Shown here one piece after another: positions 9,605-36,133 of a DNA stretch of 64,000 nt. The notes beneath the pieces are model-generated. The model saw nothing but the letters and a program-made list of their open reading frames with translations, had not been told where the DNA came from and ran no database searches. The position numbers were made by a program, and so were the translations under genes. Every line of letters begins with the position of its first letter. Within the stretch, counting starts at the first letter, position 1. The DNA comes from Parasphingopyxis algicola (GTDB taxonomy: Bacteria > Pseudomonadota > Alphaproteobacteria > Sphingomonadales > Sphingomonadaceae). The stretch covers positions 2,554,501-2,618,500 of the forward strand of contig NZ_CP051131.1 in the NCBI RefSeq assembly GCF_013378075.1, given 5' to 3'.

Positions 9605-9751
9605 CGAACATTCCTCTCAACAAGGGGTTGCGACAATGAACCCTCAACGGCGAACGCTAGCCGCGGTTGCATGAATGACCGGCAACGATCCGCCGCGATC
9701 GACGTTTCCGCGACCGGCGGTTCGATTCCTGCGATCAGTTTCCGGCGCGGC

Positions 9752-10294
9752 TCAGTTCTCTTCGGCTCTCACGAAACGTTGTCGATTGCCGAGCCGCCAG
9801 GTCTCGCCGCCATCGGTCGACATTTCCATGCGGGACCGGAACCGGTCGCGCTCGACGTCGTAGCGGGTGAAGCGCAGCATCAGGATCGATCCGTCCGCCA
9901 TGACCGTGTTCGGCGTCGTGCGCGCTTCGCTCGTGTCGGGGCCGATCATCCGCCACAAATGCCCGTCCGCGCCGACCGACGCCATTTCGATTTCGTTCCG
10001 GCTCGGCCGGACGAAAAACAGGATCGCCGATGCCTGGTTGAGTTCCGGAATCGTGCTCATGCCCGATACGATGCGGTCGGGCACCACCCAGCCGAACCGG
10101 TACTGGCCGGCAAGGGTTCGGGTTACGCTGCCGTCGGGTGCGATGAAATCGGTCTCGACATTCCACAGGCCGATCGCATGGCGGAGTTGCTCGATAGCGA
10201 CGGCTGGCGGTTCGGGCGGCGCATCCTGCGCTGCCGATGGCGTGGCCGATATGGCGACGCACAGCAGTGCGGCGGCGCACAGGAACAGGCGCAT
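9752..10294 (-). CDS. Exported protein of unknown function (DUF1579-like)
   Basis: A 180-residue protein with a signal peptide cut after MRLFLCAAALLCVAISATPSAAQ. The mature part reads like the DUF1579/lipocalin-like group: HAIGLWNVETDFIAPDGSVTRTLAGQYRFGWVVPDRIVSG, then strands ending with RFRSRMEMSTDGGETW. These proteins are small beta-barrels found in signal-bearing, secreted form; ligand unknown. The larger frame that starts at 10424 on the same strand only adds out-of-frame sequence and is not used. Confidence 0.7.
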   Translation of the reverse strand: MRLFLCAAALLCVAISATPSAAQDAPPEPPAVAIEQLRHAIGLWNVETDFIAPDGSVTRTLAGQYRFGWVVPDRIVSGMSTIPELNQASAILFFVRPSRNEIEMASVGADGHLWRMIGPDTSEARTTPNTVMADGSILMLRFTRYDVERDRFRSRMEMSTDGGETWRLGNRQRFVRAEEN

Positions 10295-10481
10295 ATATTA
10301 TCTCCCTCGGCCGGAAGCATATCATGCGCGGGGGGCGGTCGACTGCCCAGTCTTTTTCGACGAGAGACGGGACCGCGCGGCGAGCGCCTGTGACGGCAAG
10401 GGATGGATGCCGGGGCGCCGCCATTCACGTCTGGGAGGGCGACAAAAAGGGGCTGCACGCCCCGGCACAGGGGAAACGGGC

Positions 10482-10826
10482 CTAACGGTCGCCGTTGCCG
10501 AGCGTCACCCGGCCGACGCGATATCCGCGTTCGGCCATTTCGCCCGCATAATCGTCACGCGCGTCGGCGAGTTCATTGTAATATTCCGCCCAGGCATCGT
10601 TGCGGTCTTCCGGGTCGGTCGCGCGGGCGAGGTCGCTTTGCAGTTCCTGCTCGGCTTCGAAGACATCGGCCAGATAATCGTACCAATAATCGTTCTCGAC
10701 CCCGGCAATCGGGGCGTCGAGCAGATTTTCGCTTGCCCGGTGGCCGCGGTCACCGGCGACGGCGGGGGCTGCGATCAGAGCCGCGGCACCGATGGCGGTG
10801 CCGATAGCGACAGGGGGGATACGCAT
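10482..10826 (-). CDS. Small periplasmic protein of unknown function
   Basis: A 114-residue protein with a cleavable signal (MRIPPVAIGTAIGAAALIAAPAVAG). The mature chain is mostly helical and charged, with aromatic and acidic clusters (NDYWYDYLADVFEAEQELQSDL, NDAWAEYYNELADARDDYAGEMAERGYRVG), which suggests a helical hairpin or a coiled-coil. No known family is recognised. It stands alone on the minus strand between two other minus-strand genes with long gaps on both sides, so it probably has its own promoter. Confidence 0.65.
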   Translation of the reverse strand: MRIPPVAIGTAIGAAALIAAPAVAGDRGHRASENLLDAPIAGVENDYWYDYLADVFEAEQELQSDLARATDPEDRNDAWAEYYNELADARDDYAGEMAERGYRVGRVTLGNGDR

Positions 10827-10981
10827 AACAAATCTCCTTATCGGATACCCGGTCGAACCAGCCGGGCAGGACGGTAACGATCCGATCGCAGTCCATGGTT
10901 CCCGCCGCGCGGCCAGTGGAGGCCGGCGCGCGACGAGCGGGCGACGTTCGGGTTTCGTGCGCCTTTCGCTGAACGATAGCG

Positions 10982-11845
10982 TCAGTCGCGTTTCATCTCT
11001 TCGCGCACTTCGGCCATGACGTGCGGCACGCTGTACCGCTCGGCCTCCGCTCCGTCGGTTGCGTAGCGGTCGAAGCCCTGCATGATCTCCGCCGCACGCT
11101 TCTCGACCGCCGGGCGCGGCGCGGCGTTGGTCGGGATGATGAAGGCGCCGTCCTCGATACCCTTGAGCGCGGTCTCGGCAATATGCGCCGGCGCCATGCC
11201 GCGGGCCAGCATCGCCTTGGTAAATTCTGTCGCGCGTTCGGGCGTTGCGGGGAGGTCGTCATTCCGGCCGGTCTCGTAGAGCCGGGTCGCCGTAAGCCCG
11301 GGACAAAGCAGGCTGACCGAGATGTGGTCCGGCATCTCCGCACGCAGCACATCGGCGAGGCCGAGCACCGCGGCCTTGCTTGCCGAATAGAAGCCCGCGC
11401 CCGCATGCTGCATCCCGAGGCTGTGCTCGGAACCCGTGATGCACAGATGGCCGATCCGCCGTTCGGCCATCATCAGCCGGGCAAAGCTGGCGCAGGTCGC
11501 CCAGGCGCCCCGCATATTGACCTCGTAGATGAAATCGAAGGTCGCCGGATCGCCCTTGAGCAACGGTGCGCCCGGCCCGACACCGGCATTGGCAAAGACC
11601 AGGTCAACGCCGCCGAGCATGTCCCAGCTCTCCTCCGCCAGCCGCTCGACAGCGGCCACATCGCGGACGTCGCAGACCATCGCCGTCGCGGCGTCACCGA
11701 TCGCCTCGGCCGTACGCCCGGCTTCCGCACCGTCGACATCGGCGATCACGACCCGTCCGCCCCGCGCCACCAGGGTTTCGGCCAGCGCGCGGCCGATGCC
11801 CGACGCTCCGCCGGTGATAACCGCGGCCCTATTGTGCGTGTCCAT
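10982..11845 (-). CDS. Short-chain dehydrogenase/reductase (SDR family)
   Basis: A 287-residue NAD(P)-dependent oxidoreductase of the classical SDR type. It has the cofactor-binding TGGASGIGRA (residues 11-20), VIADVDGAEA after strand 2 (an Asp here usually favours NAD), NAGVG, the catalytic Ser region in CITGSEHS and the catalytic Y-x-x-x-K in GFYSASKAAV. The C-terminal part is longer than usual and ends with a charged helix. Substrate cannot be read from the sequence; relatives act on steroids, terpenoids or 3-hydroxyacyl compounds. It stands alone, with the DUF1801 gene divergent. Confidence 0.88.
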   Translation of the reverse strand: MDTHNRAAVITGGASGIGRALAETLVARGGRVVIADVDGAEAGRTAEAIGDAATAMVCDVRDVAAVERLAEESWDMLGGVDLVFANAGVGPGAPLLKGDPATFDFIYEVNMRGAWATCASFARLMMAERRIGHLCITGSEHSLGMQHAGAGFYSASKAAVLGLADVLRAEMPDHISVSLLCPGLTATRLYETGRNDDLPATPERATEFTKAMLARGMAPAHIAETALKGIEDGAFIIPTNAAPRPAVEKRAAEIMQGFDRYATDGAEAERYSVPHVMAEVREEMKRD

Positions 11846-28570: not shown

Positions 28571-28711
28571 TGTTTGTCAGAACGTTGCGAGCGCAACGTC
28601 ACCGCACCGGCCCGCTCCCCCTCCCGGCCTCCCATTGAGTGTACCCTAGTGGGAGGCCGGGAGGGGGAGCGGGCCGGTGCGGCGATTTCCCGACAGGGAA
28701 ATTCTGACAAG
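28571..28711. repeat. Long intergenic palindrome, copy B
   Basis: A 33-bp perfect stem (28602-28634 with 28650-28682) around the 15-base loop TTGAGTGTACCCTAG. Left flank: TGTCAGA then ACGTTGC-GAGC-GCAACGT. Right flank: ATTTCCC-GACA-GGGAAAT then TCTGACA. It lies between the convergent MBL and VOC genes. Loop orientation is opposite to copy A. Confidence 0.92.
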
Positions 28712-28750: not shown

Positions 28751-29131
28751 CTACCCGACCTTGAACGCGCAGAGCTTGTTGCCGTCGAGATCGCGGAAAT
28801 AGGCTGCGTAGAAGCCCATTTCTTCCGGTTCGCGCAAGCCCGGCGCGCCCTCGTCATCGGCGCCCAGCTCTAGCGCCTTGGCATGCAGCGCGTCCACCTC
28901 GGCACGATCCTCGGCCTGGAGCGCGATCATCATGCCGTTACCGACCGTCGCCTTTTCGCCGTTGAACGGCGGGGTGACGCACAGCATCGGCTGGCCCATT
29001 TCCTTGCCGTAACCGGTAAAGCCTTCGTCGAGCTGCATCAGCCGTTTCGCCCCCACGGTTTCGAACAGCGCGTCGTAAAAGCCCCGCGCCTTTTCCAGAT
29101 CGTTGGTGCCGATAGTCGCATAGCCAATCAT
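28751..29131 (-). CDS. VOC-family (glyoxalase/bleomycin-resistance-like) protein
   Basis: A 126-residue protein with a paired beta-alpha-beta-beta-beta fold. It begins MIGYATIGTNDLEKARGFYDALFETVGAKRL and has GKEMGQPMLCVTPPFNGEKATVGNGMMIALQA and the end GFYAAYFRDLDGNKLCAFKVG. Y-F-R-D-L-D-G-N-K-L is the standard metal-site strand of this family. It could bind a small substrate or antibiotic, or be a lactoylglutathione-type enzyme. It is the only gene between palindrome B and the TIR locus and reads in the same direction as it. Confidence 0.88.
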   Translation of the reverse strand: MIGYATIGTNDLEKARGFYDALFETVGAKRLMQLDEGFTGYGKEMGQPMLCVTPPFNGEKATVGNGMMIALQAEDRAEVDALHAKALELGADDEGAPGLREPEEMGFYAAYFRDLDGNKLCAFKVG

Positions 29132-29234: not shown

Positions 29235-30239
29235 TCAGCAGTTCTTGCCTGCATAGAAATAGTGAAACTCCACCTCGTACAGGCTCTGTCCGCCCGCGCC
29301 GTCCCGTATCGTGAGGTTTCCGTCGGCCAATATCTTGGTGTTCCGTTCCGGCGTGACGTCGAGTGCGAATGTCGCGGTGCCGCCGTCGAGCGCCGCGGGC
29401 CGGCAGGTGAATTCGGCAAGCAGCTTCGCGTCCACGCCCTCGGACAGCCCGTCCATCGAGCAATTGTGCCGCCCGTCCGGATCGAAAAAGGAAATGCCGG
29501 GATTGGTCGATTCGATCGCTCCGATGCAACCGGCCGAGGATTGAAGATCGAGCCGATCGAACAGCGCCTCGGCCGCTTCCCGCCCGTCGCCCGCCGCGAC
29601 CGGCGTATGGACCGTCATCTCGCGGACCCAGCTTCCCGGCAGCACCTTCAGTTCTGCGTCCGCTTCCCCGCCGATCAGGAACCAGGCGGCCGCAATACCC
29701 GCGACGGCGATCGCCGCACCGCCGCCGAGCCAGGCGATCCTGTTCCGGCCGGACCGGCCGCGCGCACGGGACGGCGTGGTCGCCTGCGCGCCGGATGCGC
29801 CGTCGTCGCCGGCCTGCAGCTTGATCGTGTCGATCAGGCGCTGGATCGTCGCGTCGCGGCGGTCGATCCAGTCGATCCACTGATAGCCGCTCAGCCAATA
29901 GGCGAGACCCTCGGCGTCGATATCCTCGAGCCGGACCGGATAGATCAGCTTCTTGTTGTCGACCGCCAGGGTCAGTTCGCGCCGGACATGGTCCGACTGG
30001 TCGGATTTCGCGCAGAAGAGCAGGACGACCATGTCGGACCGGCGGACCTGATCGACGATCGCCTTGTCGAAGACCACGCCCGGCTCGATATCGTCGGGCG
30101 CCATCCACCCCTCGACGCCGTTGCGTTCGAGGATGGTCTTCAGGTGCCGGGCGGTCTGCTCCTGCGAACTGTGATGGCTGATAAAGGCAACCGGCCGCGG
30201 TTCGTCCTCATCGGACCCGGGATCGGCCGCATCGTTCAC
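29235..30239 (-). CDS. TIR-transmembrane-DUF3617 protein, second copy
   Basis: About 334 residues from GTG 30239, which is 16 bases after the stop of the preceding gene; the open frame also extends to 30335 across that stop. Residues 15-150 are a TIR domain almost identical in layout to the neighbour (PVAFISHHSSQEQTARHLK, WMAPDDIEPGV, VVLLFCAKSDQSDHVRREL with the likely catalytic Glu near residue 88, LIYPVRLEDI). One membrane helix follows near 170-190 (AWLGGGAAIAVAGIAAAWFL). The C-terminal part from about residue 200 (PGSW ... FDPDGRHNC ... FTC ... GKNC) lines up with the neighbour's DUF3617-like domain. TIR would be in the cytoplasm, DUF3617 in the periplasm. See finding. Confidence 0.82.
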   Translation of the reverse strand: MNDAADPGSDEDEPRPVAFISHHSSQEQTARHLKTILERNGVEGWMAPDDIEPGVVFDKAIVDQVRRSDMVVLLFCAKSDQSDHVRRELTLAVDNKKLIYPVRLEDIDAEGLAYWLSGYQWIDWIDRRDATIQRLIDTIKLQAGDDGASGAQATTPSRARGRSGRNRIAWLGGGAAIAVAGIAAAWFLIGGEADAELKVLPGSWVREMTVHTPVAAGDGREAAEALFDRLDLQSSAGCIGAIESTNPGISFFDPDGRHNCSMDGLSEGVDAKLLAEFTCRPAALDGGTATFALDVTPERNTKILADGNLTIRDGAGGQSLYEVEFHYFYAGKNC

Positions 30240-30255
30240 CGGGCCCGCCCGCCCG

Positions 30256-31347
30256 TCACTCGCACGGTCCGAGATACCGGCCCGTTTGATTCGCGACGAA
30301 GCGGAACTCGTTCGGCGTATCGGGCGCGAATGCATATTCGGCCTCGGCGTCGATCCGGTCCTGCCGATAATCGCCGCGCATCCAGACGGTGAGCGCGACG
30401 CCGATATTGGGCGGCCGGCATTCGAGCTGGACGCGGAAATCCCCGCCCTCCATCTGCAGATTGCTCATCGCGCAGTTGTTCGCCCGGTCGGGATCGAAAA
30501 AGTCGTTGCCGGGCGAGCGCGCCTCCGCCTCGCTGATGCAATGGGTGGCGACATTCGCTTCGAAACCGCTGACAAAGGCGTCGACATCCGCCTGGCTGCC
30601 GCTGCGATTTTCCAGAATCCGGTCGACTTCGTACCGGGTTTCCCATTGGCCCGGGCGGACCTTGAATTCCGATTCCCCCGCCATGCTGTTGACGAACAGC
30701 CCGAGCAGGATGGCCGCGAGCACCGCGCCGCCGCCGATCGCATACCAGCCTTTCCGGTTCAGCGGGATACCGAGGAAGCGCGGCGGCGAGTCGCCGTCGC
30801 CGCTCCCATCGCCCATCAGTCCAACCGGCGCGGTTTCGGCCGGCGTGTCGGGAACCGGTTCGGCCGGAGCGGGCGCGCTCTCGGCGACGTCGGTCTCGTC
30901 GTCGTCGGCCGGCTCGTCATGGCCGACCTGGCGCTTGATCGTCTCGATCATCCGCTGGATCGTCGCGTCCCGCCGGTCGATCCAGTCGATCCACTGATAG
31001 TCGTTGAGCCAATAGGCGAGGCCCTTGGCGTCGATATCCTCGAGCCGGACCGGGTAGATGAGCTTCTTGTTGTTCTCGGCCATCATCAGCTCGCGCTTCA
31101 CATGGCGCGACTGATCGGATTTCGAGCAGAACAGCAGGACGATCAGGTCCGACCGTTCGACCTGTTCGATGATCGCCTGGTCGAAGGCGACGCCCGGATC
31201 GATATCGTCGGGCGCCATCCAGCCGGTGACGCCGTTGCGTTCGAGGATGGTCTTCAGGTGCCGGGCGGTCTGCTCCTGCGAGCTGTGATGGCTGATAAAG
31301 GCAACCGGGCGTCTCTTCCCCGCCGATCCTCCGTCATTCTGCGCCAT
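30256..31347 (-). CDS. TIR-transmembrane-DUF3617 protein, first copy
   Basis: A 363-residue protein from ATG 31347, behind a G-rich ribosome site. Residues 14-150 are a TIR domain: RRPVAFISHHSSQ, WMAPDDIDPGV (BB-loop region), LIVLLFCSKSDQSRHVKREL, where Glu 86 sits at the catalytic position of TIR NADases. A linker (150-200) is acidic and Pro-rich; a membrane helix (WYAIGGGAVLAAILLGLFV) spans about 205-225. The rest, PGQWETRY ... HCISEAEARSP ... FFDPDRANNC ... GGDFRVQLEC ... GRYLGPC, is a DUF3617 domain that resembles the lipoprotein encoded just upstream. TIR faces the cytoplasm, DUF3617 the periplasm. Confidence 0.85.
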   Translation of the reverse strand: MAQNDGGSAGKRRPVAFISHHSSQEQTARHLKTILERNGVTGWMAPDDIDPGVAFDQAIIEQVERSDLIVLLFCSKSDQSRHVKRELMMAENNKKLIYPVRLEDIDAKGLAYWLNDYQWIDWIDRRDATIQRMIETIKRQVGHDEPADDDETDVAESAPAPAEPVPDTPAETAPVGLMGDGSGDGDSPPRFLGIPLNRKGWYAIGGGAVLAAILLGLFVNSMAGESEFKVRPGQWETRYEVDRILENRSGSQADVDAFVSGFEANVATHCISEAEARSPGNDFFDPDRANNCAMSNLQMEGGDFRVQLECRPPNIGVALTVWMRGDYRQDRIDAEAEYAFAPDTPNEFRFVANQTGRYLGPCE

Positions 31348-31454
31348 CAAACCCCCCGTTCGCCGCCCCAAACGCGCCCGTCCCATATCCTAACCGCGCC
31401 GCGCCATCCTATCAATGCGGGCCTAGTCAATGCGGGCGCCCGTCCACGGGCCGG

Positions 31455-32024
31455 CTAACCGTCGGCGTCGGTCGCGCAGTCGGGGCCGAGGAAGCGGCCG
31501 TTTACCTGGCCGGCCATGGTCATCGGGCCCATCGGCCCGCCATCCATGTTCATGTTCATCGTCATGTCATAGCTGGTCGGCGTGTAGCTGCCTTCCATCC
31601 GCATCGTCATCGCGCCCGGCATTCCTTCGGACTGGCAGGTCCCGGCGATCAGGATGGTGCCGCCCGACATGTCGAACTCGCTATAGGTGCAATCGTCGCC
31701 ATCGCCGAACATGTTGGCTTCGGGCGCCGCGGCTTCCTCGGGCGTGATGCACGAGGTGTTCGTTTGCGCCCGGCCCATCTGTTCCTGCATCATGCCGCGC
31801 ATATCCTCCGGCATGTCCGGCATGTCGAACTCGGTCAGCTGGACGGTGGCTTCCCACTGGCCGGGCGTGATGTTCGCCCCGGCGCTTTCCATCTCGGCGG
31901 CCGCTTCCGCGCTGCTGATTTCGCCGTCGCCGTCCGCATCCGCATCGCCGCCGGACGAGCAGGCGGCGAGCAGCGCCATCGGCGCGGCACATGCGATCAG
32001 GGTCTTCAAGGCCGAATTCGTCAT
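31455..32024 (-). CDS. DUF3617 lipoprotein with an EF-hand-type calcium loop
   Basis: A 189-residue lipoprotein (ATG 32024; ATG 32027 directly before is also possible). Signal and lipobox: MTNSALKTLIACAAPMALLAAC, Cys 22. Residues 29-40 read D-A-D-G-D-G-E-I-S-S-A-E, a textbook 12-residue EF-hand loop (D1, D3, D5, G6, I8, E12). Then the DUF3617 domain: ITPGQWEATVQLTEFDMPDMPEDMRGMM, SCITPEEAA, DDCTYSEFDMSGG, GTCQSEGMPG and GRFLGPDC, with four conserved cysteines. It precedes the first TIR gene by 107 bases in the same direction. Its Met content is unusual. Confidence 0.85.
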   Translation of the reverse strand: MTNSALKTLIACAAPMALLAACSSGGDADADGDGEISSAEAAAEMESAGANITPGQWEATVQLTEFDMPDMPEDMRGMMQEQMGRAQTNTSCITPEEAAAPEANMFGDGDDCTYSEFDMSGGTILIAGTCQSEGMPGAMTMRMEGSYTPTSYDMTMNMNMDGGPMGPMTMAGQVNGRFLGPDCATDADG

Positions 32025-32123
32025 CATTTTCCTCCCACGAGTGCCTTCGGGCATCGACCGGGTGATAGGCGGGCGCGGCTCTCGCATCAATCCCGCGCCG
32101 CCATAGTCACGACAAGCGACCAC

Positions 32124-32163
32124 AAGAAAAGCGCCGCCGCGGCGGGCGGTCGCGGCGGCGCTT
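32124..32163 (-). terminator. Rho-independent terminator between the two DUF3617 lipoprotein genes
   Basis: On the minus strand an 11-bp perfect stem GCGCCGCCGCG / CGCGGCGGCGC (32161-32151 with 32141-32131) with a nine-base loop is followed by TTTTCTTG. It lies 20 bases after the stop of the first DUF3617 gene. So that gene is probably a separate or attenuated transcript from the EF-hand DUF3617-TIR-TIR genes. Confidence 0.72.
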
Positions 32164-32182
32164 CACTATCGCTGCGATGACG

Positions 32183-32680
32183 TCAGCTATCGGCCTGCGT
32201 TTCAGCTTCGCAGTCGCCGGAGCGTTCGGCTGTCATCGTGCTGGCTATCCGCATTTCCATCGGTCCGCCTTCGACATTGCCCGTTATTTCGGCTTCCATG
32301 CTCGTGGCCGTGTAGCTTCCTTGCATCGAGAAGGTCGTGGTACCCGGCCCTTCGGTTGCCTGGCAGGTTGCATCGACATTGATGACACCGCCTTCGAAGG
32401 CGGATTCACCGAAATCGCAATCCTCGCCCATGTCGCCCTCCATGAACATCGCTTCGACGGGGTTTGTCACATCCTCGTCGCTCAGGCAGATGGTGTTTGG
32501 GGGTTGCGCATTCGCCTGTTCCCGCATTTGCGCCACCATCTCTTCCGGTACGCTCGGGATGTCGATCTCGGTCATCTGCGTGGTCATCGTCCACTCGCCG
32601 GCTTGAAGACCGTCGCTACCGCCGCCCGAACACGCGCTGAGCAGCGCCAGCGGCGCCACCGCGATCAAAAACTTCTGCAT
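32183..32680 (-). CDS. DUF3617 lipoprotein
   Basis: A 165-residue lipoprotein: [17 protein letters not shown] with the lipid-modified Cys 17. The domain reads [80 protein letters not shown] and the C-terminal RSGDC. The order of four cysteines and the G-x-W start are those of DUF3617. The family is periplasmic or outer-membrane-anchored and of unknown role. The gene is the first of the TIR-DUF3617 locus and is divergent from uvrB. Confidence 0.85.
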
Positions 32681-32865
32681 TCTGGATACCTCTCGGTTTC
32701 ATCGTTGGCAAAGGAGCGGACCCTCGGGCGCGACACTGGCGAACGCGGCGAAAAGACGCAAGGACAAACCGCCGCGCCGATGGCGGGCATCCGCATGTCA
32801 GGAGGCTTGTCGTCCGGCGCAGCGCACCGTTGCGAAACCGCCTCCCGCGCTCCATATCCGCCCGC

Positions 32866-35046
<2,181 letters not shown>

Positions 35047-35104: not shown

Positions 35105-35563
35105 GTGCAGATTGAGATCGATTTTGACGTTTTCAAAGCGCTAACGGCGCTGCGACAGACTGAGGCAGACTCATACAACTCTGTCATCAGAAGACTCCTT
35201 GAACTCCCCGATCAGGCGGCTTCAGTCTCCGATCAGCCAAATGCGTTGGCCCAGTTCGCCAAGCGGCGGGGCGTTTTGGAGGGAGTGGGGAAAAACGCAC
35301 TTTTGGACACCTTGGGCGGGATATGGTTTGGGAGTACCCATTTTCCTGACGGAACGAAGTTCCGAGCAACATACAAGGGCCGGACCTATTTCGCAGAGAT
35401 TCGAGATGGCAAATGGATTGATGAAGACGGTCTGGTTAGGACGAGTCCGTCAGATGCCGCGAGCGCGATTTCAAATACAAACGTGAATGGGTGGCGCTTC
35501 TGGTATGTTCTGATGCCTGGCACATCCGAATGGCGGAAGATGGATGAGTTTAAATCATCATGA
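35105..35563 (+). CDS. SeqA-like RHH plus RAMA domain protein
   Basis: A 152-residue protein from GTG 35105, with GGAG seven bases upstream. Residues 1-35 (MQIEIDFDVFKALTALRQTEADSYNSVIRRLLEL) resemble the SeqA N-terminal ribbon-helix-helix dimerisation unit. Residues 70-145 (GIWFGSTHFPDGTKFRATYKGRTYFAEIRDGKWIDEDGLVRTSPSDAASAISNTNVNGWRFWYVL) form a RAMA domain, found with restriction-modification and predicted DNA-modification recognition proteins. GC is lower than in neighbours. Its stop overlaps the start of the HigB gene by four bases (ATGA), so the three genes are one operon. Possibly a reader of modified DNA that reports to the toxin-antitoxin pair. Confidence 0.75.
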   Translation: MQIEIDFDVFKALTALRQTEADSYNSVIRRLLELPDQAASVSDQPNALAQFAKRRGVLEGVGKNALLDTLGGIWFGSTHFPDGTKFRATYKGRTYFAEIRDGKWIDEDGLVRTSPSDAASAISNTNVNGWRFWYVLMPGTSEWRKMDEFKSS

Positions 35564-35841
35564 TCCGTGGTTTCGCCGATAAGCAAACCGAGCGTATCTG
35601 GAATGGTCGACGTAGCCGTAAGCTGCCGAACAATATCCAGAGCCGAGCACTCGATCGGCTGAAAATGCTCAACCGCGCCAAATCTCTGGAAGATTTGCGG
35701 AATCCGCCCGGCAATCGTCTTCATGCGCTGAAAAAAGACCGCGCTGGGCAGCATTCGATTTCCATTAATGACCAATGGCGTATATGTTTCGTCTGGAAGG
35801 ACGGAAACGCAGATGGCGTCGAAATCGCAGACTATCACTGA
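35560..35841 (+). CDS. higB: HigB-type toxin (RelE/ParE superfamily)
   Basis: A 93-residue protein. MIRGFADKQTERIWNGRRSRKLPNNIQSRALDRLKMLNRAKSLEDLRNPPGNRLHALKKDRAGQHSISINDQWRICFVWKDGNADGVEIADYH is a complete match to the HigB layout: LKKDRAGQHSI and NDQWRICFVW. HigB cuts mRNA on translating ribosomes. The toxin gene comes before the antitoxin, as is usual for HigBA. Overlaps the RAMA gene by four bases and higA by 29 bases. Confidence 0.92.
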   Translation: MIRGFADKQTERIWNGRRSRKLPNNIQSRALDRLKMLNRAKSLEDLRNPPGNRLHALKKDRAGQHSISINDQWRICFVWKDGNADGVEIADYH

Positions 35842-36133
35842 TCCCGACTGGCTACATAACAGCCATGCTGGGGAATTATTGGTGAGCGAATTTATTGAGC
35901 CTCTGAGGCTCGATGTTGCCGAGCTTGCGCAAGCCTTGGCGATCCCTTCCGCTCGCCTGCAATCGATGATTGACGGAAAGGCGCGAGTCGACGCCGATCT
36001 CGATCTCCGGCTGGCGCGCTATTTTCGCATGTCGGAGGGCTTCTTTCTCGGATTGCAAAACGATTATGAGCTGCTCGAAGCGAAGCGCGCATTGAACGGC
36101 GAACTCGACCGGATCGTTCCGCGCGCCGCCTGA
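35813..36133 (+). CDS. higA: HigA-type antitoxin (XRE-family HTH)
   Basis: A 106-residue protein from ATG 35813. It has an XRE helix-turn-helix (PLRLDVAELAQALAIPSARLQSMIDGKARVDADLDLRLARYFRMSEGFFLGLQNDYELLEAKR), the HigA/VapI pattern. It neutralises HigB and represses its own promoter; the palindrome at 35077-35093 is the natural candidate site. The start lies within the last 29 bases of higB. Confidence 0.9.
   Translation: MASKSQTITDPDWLHNSHAGELLVSEFIEPLRLDVAELAQALAIPSARLQSMIDGKARVDADLDLRLARYFRMSEGFFLGLQNDYELLEAKRALNGELDRIVPRAA

Follow-up and report, generated by a model that had tools for sequence, protein, structure and literature searches.

Bacterial TIR domains have mostly been studied as effectors in phage-defence operons. 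Here we describe two adjacent genes, called TIR1 and TIR2, in a 64,000-nucleotide stretch of Parasphingopyxis algicola DNA (contig NZ_CP051131.1, positions 2,554,501 to 2,618,500; hereafter the window), whose products join a TIR domain to one transmembrane (TM) helix and a C-terminal DUF3617 domain, and we compare them with the closest described systems. Thoeris ThsB has the TIR domain in common with them, and weak matches to the ThsB_TIR model are found, but their membrane-receptor layout sets them apart from ThsB/ThsA and the Trp linked to the production of cyclic ADP-ribose (cyclic-ADPR) is replaced by His. The nearest TIR structures are those of SPARTA TIR-APAZ and SARM1, and the Glu is kept in TIR1 and TIR2; these two proteins, however, are membrane-bound and carry neither the APAZ, Argonaute, SAM and ARM parts nor the Trp of the WxxxE motif. 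The Toll-like and IL-1 receptors of animals cross the membrane once, with a sensing part outside the cell and the TIR in the cytoplasm, one type of TIR being combined with varied ectodomains. In TIR1 and TIR2 this order is inverted, the TIR being N-terminal, and there are no leucine-rich repeat or immunoglobulin domains and no known adaptor. The sequence layout fits a resemblance to Toll-type receptors, not membership.

Two further groups are closer in sequence. DUF3617 lipoproteins (PF12276) share a homologous domain and four Cys with the fusions; they carry a lipid anchor, whereas TIR1 and TIR2 attach DUF3617 to a TIR and a TM helix. In Sphingomonadales, TIR-TM-LprI and TIR-TM-TonB_C proteins have the same TIR family and membrane layout, differ in the periplasmic domain and are equally undescribed in the literature searched. 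In that search, neither DUF3617 nor PF12276 was mentioned in any paper found, and nothing on point was retrieved for membrane TIR receptors or for LprI or TonB_C fusions. The TIR-DUF3617 family is real, conserved and, as far as the literature was searched, undescribed. We read TIR1 and TIR2 as single-pass inner-membrane receptors for envelope surveillance, members of a family sharing a common TIR output, and give this reading a probability of about 0.5.

Domain architecture of TIR1 and TIR2

The two genes and their parts are as follows.

30256..31347, minus strand: TIR1, 363 amino acids (aa), likely start at 31347; TIR_2 3.6e-18 and DUF3617 8.9e-13 (Pfam), AlphaFold2 (AF2) model, genus orthologues
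30922..31311, minus strand: TIR domain of TIR1, residues 13-142; H82 codon at 31102-31104, E86 codon at 31090-31092
30682..30756, minus strand: TM helix of TIR1, AF2 helix 198-222; Kyte-Doolittle maximum of 2.04 at 201-219, NRKGW before it
30262..30657, minus strand: DUF3617 domain of TIR1, residues 231-362 (Pfam); Cys 270, 292, 310 and 362
29235..30239, minus strand: TIR2, 334 aa, likely start GTG at 30239; TIR_2 1.1e-18 (Pfam)
29238..29654, minus strand: DUF3617 domain of TIR2, residues 196-334 (hhalign and AF2; below Pfam detection)

TIR1 consists of a TIR, an acidic and proline-rich linker, one TM helix and DUF3617; TIR2, 49% identical to it over 306 columns, consists of a TIR, a TM helix and a divergent DUF3617. 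The TIR_2 model (PF13676) scores 66.7 and 68.3 bits in the two proteins for a cut-off of 28, and DUF3617 in TIR1 scores 49.4 bits against a cut-off of 24.5 (Pfam), or 52.2 bits in a search of the organism's own genome. The C-terminus of TIR2 gave no Pfam DUF3617 match. Aligned with hhalign, four TIR2 C-terminal domains matched 39 DUF3617 lipoproteins with a probability of 95.4% and an E-value of 1.7e-8, and the AF2 model of this domain (mean predicted local distance difference test, pLDDT, 88.5; predicted template modelling score 0.81) has the element order of the TIR1 DUF3617, which was itself modelled with pLDDT mostly between 81 and 95. Four Cys are kept in the C-terminal part of all 15 fusions compared. 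On the profile-profile comparison, the four Cys and the model, the C-terminal domain of TIR2 is a divergent DUF3617 homologue. An earlier note made from the sequence of the window had proposed two adjacent TIR-helix-DUF3617 proteins, and Pfam, hhalign, the Cys pattern and the DUF3617 element order common to both AF2 models all bear it out. One hydrophobic helix precedes each C-terminal domain; in both proteins basic residues flank it towards the TIR, an arrangement that would place the TIR in the cytoplasm and DUF3617 in the periplasm.

The DUF3617 model is beta-rich, with the order E H E H H E E E E E. Its nearest shapes in the PDB are lipocalins, odorant-binding proteins, avidins and designed barrels, at Z scores of 6-8 that lie in the chance range, and no known family could be named from this comparison (best Z 8.0). 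The model leaves room for a guess that DUF3617 is a small barrel able to hold a ligand.

A TIR family with varied C-terminal domains

The same TIR, linker and membrane helix are found elsewhere joined to other C-terminal parts. In the P. algicola genome itself they are followed by an LprI-like part, assigned by reading the sequence, and by TonB_C (7.1e-11, Pfam) at locus L053. Other family members end in LprI, in a SPOR-like part (E 0.024, sub-threshold) or, in one case, in nothing recognisable. A more distant TIR-TM-SH3_3 protein (2e-7) is encoded in the same genome at L126:4695-5690 (near 3,564,000); its SH3_3 part is likely periplasmic and possibly wall-binding. For most genes of the family, the surrounding genes are conserved from species to species. 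The TonB_C type adjoins branched-chain keto-acid dehydrogenase-like genes, the SPOR type gltB-like and uppP-like genes and the LprI type homoserine-dehydrogenase-like genes, these neighbours being named by reading their sequences. At L045:8972-11063, a TIR-DUF3617 gene and a TIR-SPOR gene form a tandem pair; L048 and L042 have the SPOR type only at this locus.

Winged-helix proteins accompany part of the family. The gene at L053:9137-9451 (Trans_reg_C 4.5e-19) lies directly upstream of the TIR-LprI-like-TonB_C gene at 9641-11212 (near 3,457,000 of the P. algicola genome), and this pairing with a stand-alone winged-helix gene is conserved in L041, L047 and L050. At L057:10102-10989, open at the contig end, a TIR is joined to a winged-helix domain (Trans_reg_C 1.1e-17); this protein is a candidate soluble partner of the membrane TIRs.

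The two ends of the proteins evolve at very different rates. In four species pairs, the nonsynonymous divergence (dN) of the TIR of TIR1 is 0.020-0.056, below that of the neighbouring uvrB (0.042-0.064) in each pair, and the DUF3617 of TIR1 reaches 0.215-0.404, 6-13 times its TIR, the linker being higher still. TIR2 follows the same trend (TIR 0.052-0.119, DUF3617 0.147-0.320). Such a split in constraint is as expected of a fixed inside partner or chemistry combined with an outside part adapting to a shifting ligand. Gene conversion is an unlikely source of the TIR conservation, since the TIR of TIR1 is 91-96% identical to its orthologues at synonymous divergences (dS) of 0.47-0.91; it is also disfavoured by the lower identity, 76%, between the TIRs of TIR1 and TIR2 within one genome.

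TIR chemistry and proposed function

Among the best structural matches of the TIR1 TIR model are the TIRs of SPARTA (8i87_G, Z 16.8) and SARM1 (9mw2_A, Z 15.7; VIA-align). The Glu that the earlier note had seen at the position used by NADases is E86, in helix C of TIR1. It is present without exception in the family TIRs (39 of 39), and its counterpart in oyster TIR-STING is likewise Glu; Trp43, Asp48 and Trp119 are invariant as well. This Glu is, however, weak evidence for hydrolysis of nicotinamide adenine dinucleotide (NAD): more than 70% of all TIR domains have it, and it need not correlate with activity (PMC7075850). Bacterial NADase TIRs use WxxxE, the Trp of which shows strong conservation in TIRs that produce cyclic-ADPR (PMC11374754). 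In the family described here, the Trp is replaced by His82, also invariant in 39 of 39 (HxxxE); the TIRs encoded at L125 and L126 of the P. algicola genome retain WxxxE. Cyclic-ADPR signalling by the family TIR looks unlikely on this motif, and the invariant His therefore makes NAD hydrolysis or scaffolding likelier than a cyclic-ADPR signal.

In the proposed mechanism, DUF3617 on the outside would bind something in the envelope, be it a ligand, a lipid or the free lipoprotein paralogues encoded upstream. Binding or crowding would draw TIR domains together, and the assembled TIRs would hydrolyse NAD+ or act as a scaffold. Because the paralogues bear the same TIR on other periplasmic parts, one conserved cytoplasmic output into which all of them would feed is probable. 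Constitutive envelope surveillance would be the likeliest job, phage entry being one possible trigger. The earlier proposal of a periplasmic DUF3617 sensor reporting to a cytoplasmic TIR effector stands in part: the layout and the modular, receptor-like family make a sensing role likelier, while the kept Glu says little about NAD cleavage.

Several points weigh against envelope surveillance by TIR1 and TIR2. No ligand, downstream partner or activity is known for either protein. Searched alone against the PDB, the DUF3617 model retrieved no chain under E 0.001 (best Foldseek E 0.014), and ligand binding is only a guess because the domain is without a clear PDB relative. AF2 confidence is moderate in the TIR of TIR1 (53-81 in blocks of 10 residues) and low in its TM helix. 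The His in place of the Trp of WxxxE weakens the enzymatic version, and relaxed constraint on the outside DUF3617 could give the same divergence pattern as an adapting one.

The alternative that survives best would make the TIR a non-catalytic assembly domain and the family a set of membrane scaffolds that recruit soluble TIR proteins or regulators to the envelope. We consider it plausible, if short of probable. HxxxE in place of WxxxE and a Glu that is not diagnostic of activity are in keeping with it, a TIR so strongly conserved over its entire length suggests that contacts between TIRs are maintained, and the winged-helix proteins, fused to a TIR in L057 or encoded just upstream of the TIR-TonB_C gene, fit such a role. 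It has to contend with an overall fold nearest to catalytic TIRs, and Glu, Trp43, Asp48 and Trp119, all of them invariant, could mark a pocket that has been kept, although this is not proof.

If envelope surveillance is the correct reading, bacteria would have a receptor layer with swappable outside domains, a design parallel to that of animal Toll receptors, DUF3617 would gain its first functional context, and a bacterial TIR role outside mobile defence islands would become directly testable in a cultured genus. A bolder version would give Parasphingopyxis a bacterial counterpart of a Toll-type set, in which interchangeable ectodomains (DUF3617, LprI plus TonB_C, SPOR-like) on one near-invariant HxxxE TIR report the state of the envelope through a common output; we put it forward tentatively and regard it as rather doubtful.

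Genomic context and distribution

The surroundings of TIR1 and TIR2 are listed below.

31455..32024, minus strand: free DUF3617 lipoprotein A (P0003), Pfam DUF3617 2.8e-22
31905..31940, minus strand: EF-hand-type loop DADGDGEISSAE, P0003 residues 29-40 (motif scan; Pfam EF-hand_5 only E 0.79)
32129..32163, minus strand: terminator-like hairpin 3' of lipoprotein B (fold and scan)
32183..32680, minus strand: free DUF3617 lipoprotein B (P0004), Pfam DUF3617 7.5e-14
32830..35046, plus strand: uvrB, divergent syntenic anchor (Pfam and synteny)
28751..29131, minus strand: glyoxalase-fold protein, anchor on the opposite side (Pfam and synteny)

Between uvrB and the glyoxalase-fold gene, the minus strand thus carries lipoprotein B, lipoprotein A, TIR1 and TIR2 in this order. 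Both lipoproteins start with a signal peptide and a lipobox (LAAC and LSAC), and their DUF3617 domains score 80 and 52.9 bits (Pfam); the DUF3617 domains found by the Pfam model in this genome number three, all at the uvrB locus. The gap between TIR1 and TIR2 is 16 nucleotides (nt), and lipoprotein A lies 107 nt upstream of TIR1; in four relatives the latter distance is 79-91 nt and the former, where TIR2 exists, 16-60 nt. A strong hairpin separates lipoprotein B from lipoprotein A, and L034 and L035 have hairpins in the same place. Lipoprotein A, TIR1 and TIR2 are therefore the likely transcription unit, lipoprotein B probably belonging to another. The four-gene cluster of the earlier note, with two free DUF3617 lipoproteins upstream on the same strand, is confirmed in its open reading frames (ORFs) and gene order, and the hairpin argues against lipoprotein B sharing a unit with the TIR genes.

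Seven Parasphingopyxis genomes have TIR-DUF3617 fusions beside uvrB. In the window and in L034-L039, uvrB is followed by at least two free DUF3617 genes and then by TIR-DUF3617, accompanied by TIR2 or not, and the glyoxalase gene comes next at the genus uvrB locus in all but L039; the contigs of L040 and L052 end before the whole locus is visible. These orthologues rule out an artefact of one genome. Outside the genus, complete fusions occur in three genomes (G160, G354 and G294) among 348 Sphingomonadales searched, with further ones in three metagenome assemblies; in the sequence read around them, neither uvrB nor a free DUF3617 gene adjoins any of these fusions. A class-wide sample of 385 genomes yielded no fusion at E <= 1e-20 except that of P. 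algicola itself. The pairing of TIR and DUF3617, first noticed in a single genome, thus extends through the genus and, rarely, to other Sphingomonadales.

Free DUF3617 lipoproteins are spread more widely, a protein like lipoprotein A being present in 27 of 60 genomes and 18 of 48 genera sampled. Ten loci from outside the genus were selected because they matched DUF3617 strongly; in eight of them a free DUF3617 gene lies beside uvrB without a TIR, and four of these eight also have a glyoxalase gene close by. Most simply, the linkage of uvrB and DUF3617 would be older than the TIR fusions at this place. The free lipoproteins were therefore not born as decoys, and the suggestion that they serve as decoys or inhibitors does not hold for their original role. 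In one class of these lipoproteins an EF-hand-type loop (DxDxDGxIxxxE) sits directly after the lipobox; it was seen in 17 of the 45 free DUF3617 proteins and in 22 of the 4976 ORFs scanned in all, and its orthologues occur in L034-L040, L052 and L110-L118. The motif suggests Ca2+ binding by lipoprotein A and its loop-bearing relatives.

This context bears on a role in antiphage abortive infection, in which DUF3617 would sense envelope damage or phage entry, the TIR would destroy NAD+ and kill the cell, and the lipoproteins would restrain or report. A fold nearest to the SPARTA and SARM1 NADases and the invariant E86 speak for it, as do the free DUF3617 paralogues that lie immediately upstream at each uvrB locus of the genus not truncated by a contig end. 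We nevertheless consider it unlikely. The core syntenic site beside uvrB, unlike a mobile defence island, is mildly against it, as are the housekeeping neighbourhoods of the paralogues, a TIR in TIR1 as conserved as UvrB and the lipoproteins that exist without a TIR in other genera. PADLOC found weak partial TIR matches and no system, and NCBIfam names no system either. No SAVED domain was detected by Pfam, and the PADLOC SAVED_TIR model matched in the TIR part only. The absence of a known partner is also mildly unfavourable. The STALD domain of ThsA-type effectors (PF18185) was not found in 10 genomes, a negative that carries little information because the controls of this search were silent too.

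In the DUF3617 tree, a starred clade (99/99) unites the domains of TIR1 and TIR2 with those of other fusions, G354 and G294 among them, and some other fusion domains lie among free lipoproteins. The tree requires four changes, yet a single clade of all TIR-DUF3617 fusions, although not shown by it, is not rejected (approximately unbiased test, p 0.099); the TIR tree is poorly resolved among paralogues. That DUF3617 is a localisation domain captured from neighbouring lipoprotein genes and merely displayed on a membrane anchor would agree with the ancestral uvrB linkage, with TIR fusions having arisen later in that cluster and with some fusion domains grouping with free lipoproteins, but is improbable given the separate clade of TIR1 and TIR2 with other fusions, some from outside the genus, and a domain that has diverged fast without losing its four Cys or its fold.

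Other features of the window

On the far side of uvrB, a small protein with weak RAMA/DUF4357 likeness (35105-35563) precedes a HigB-like toxin gene (PF05015, 6.8e-16; 35560-35841), which is followed by a short gene at the antitoxin place, without a Pfam match (35768-36133). Beyond the glyoxalase-fold gene, a long imperfect palindrome at 28574-28710 has 61-nt arms, 80% complementary, around a 15-nt spacer. It is part of an interspersed repeat with 84 matches in the P. algicola genome. Many of these matches are the two strands of a single copy, so that with 40 of 106 candidates scored they amount to about 40 places. The palindrome looks like an element of the miniature inverted-repeat transposable element (MITE) or repetitive extragenic palindromic (REP) type.

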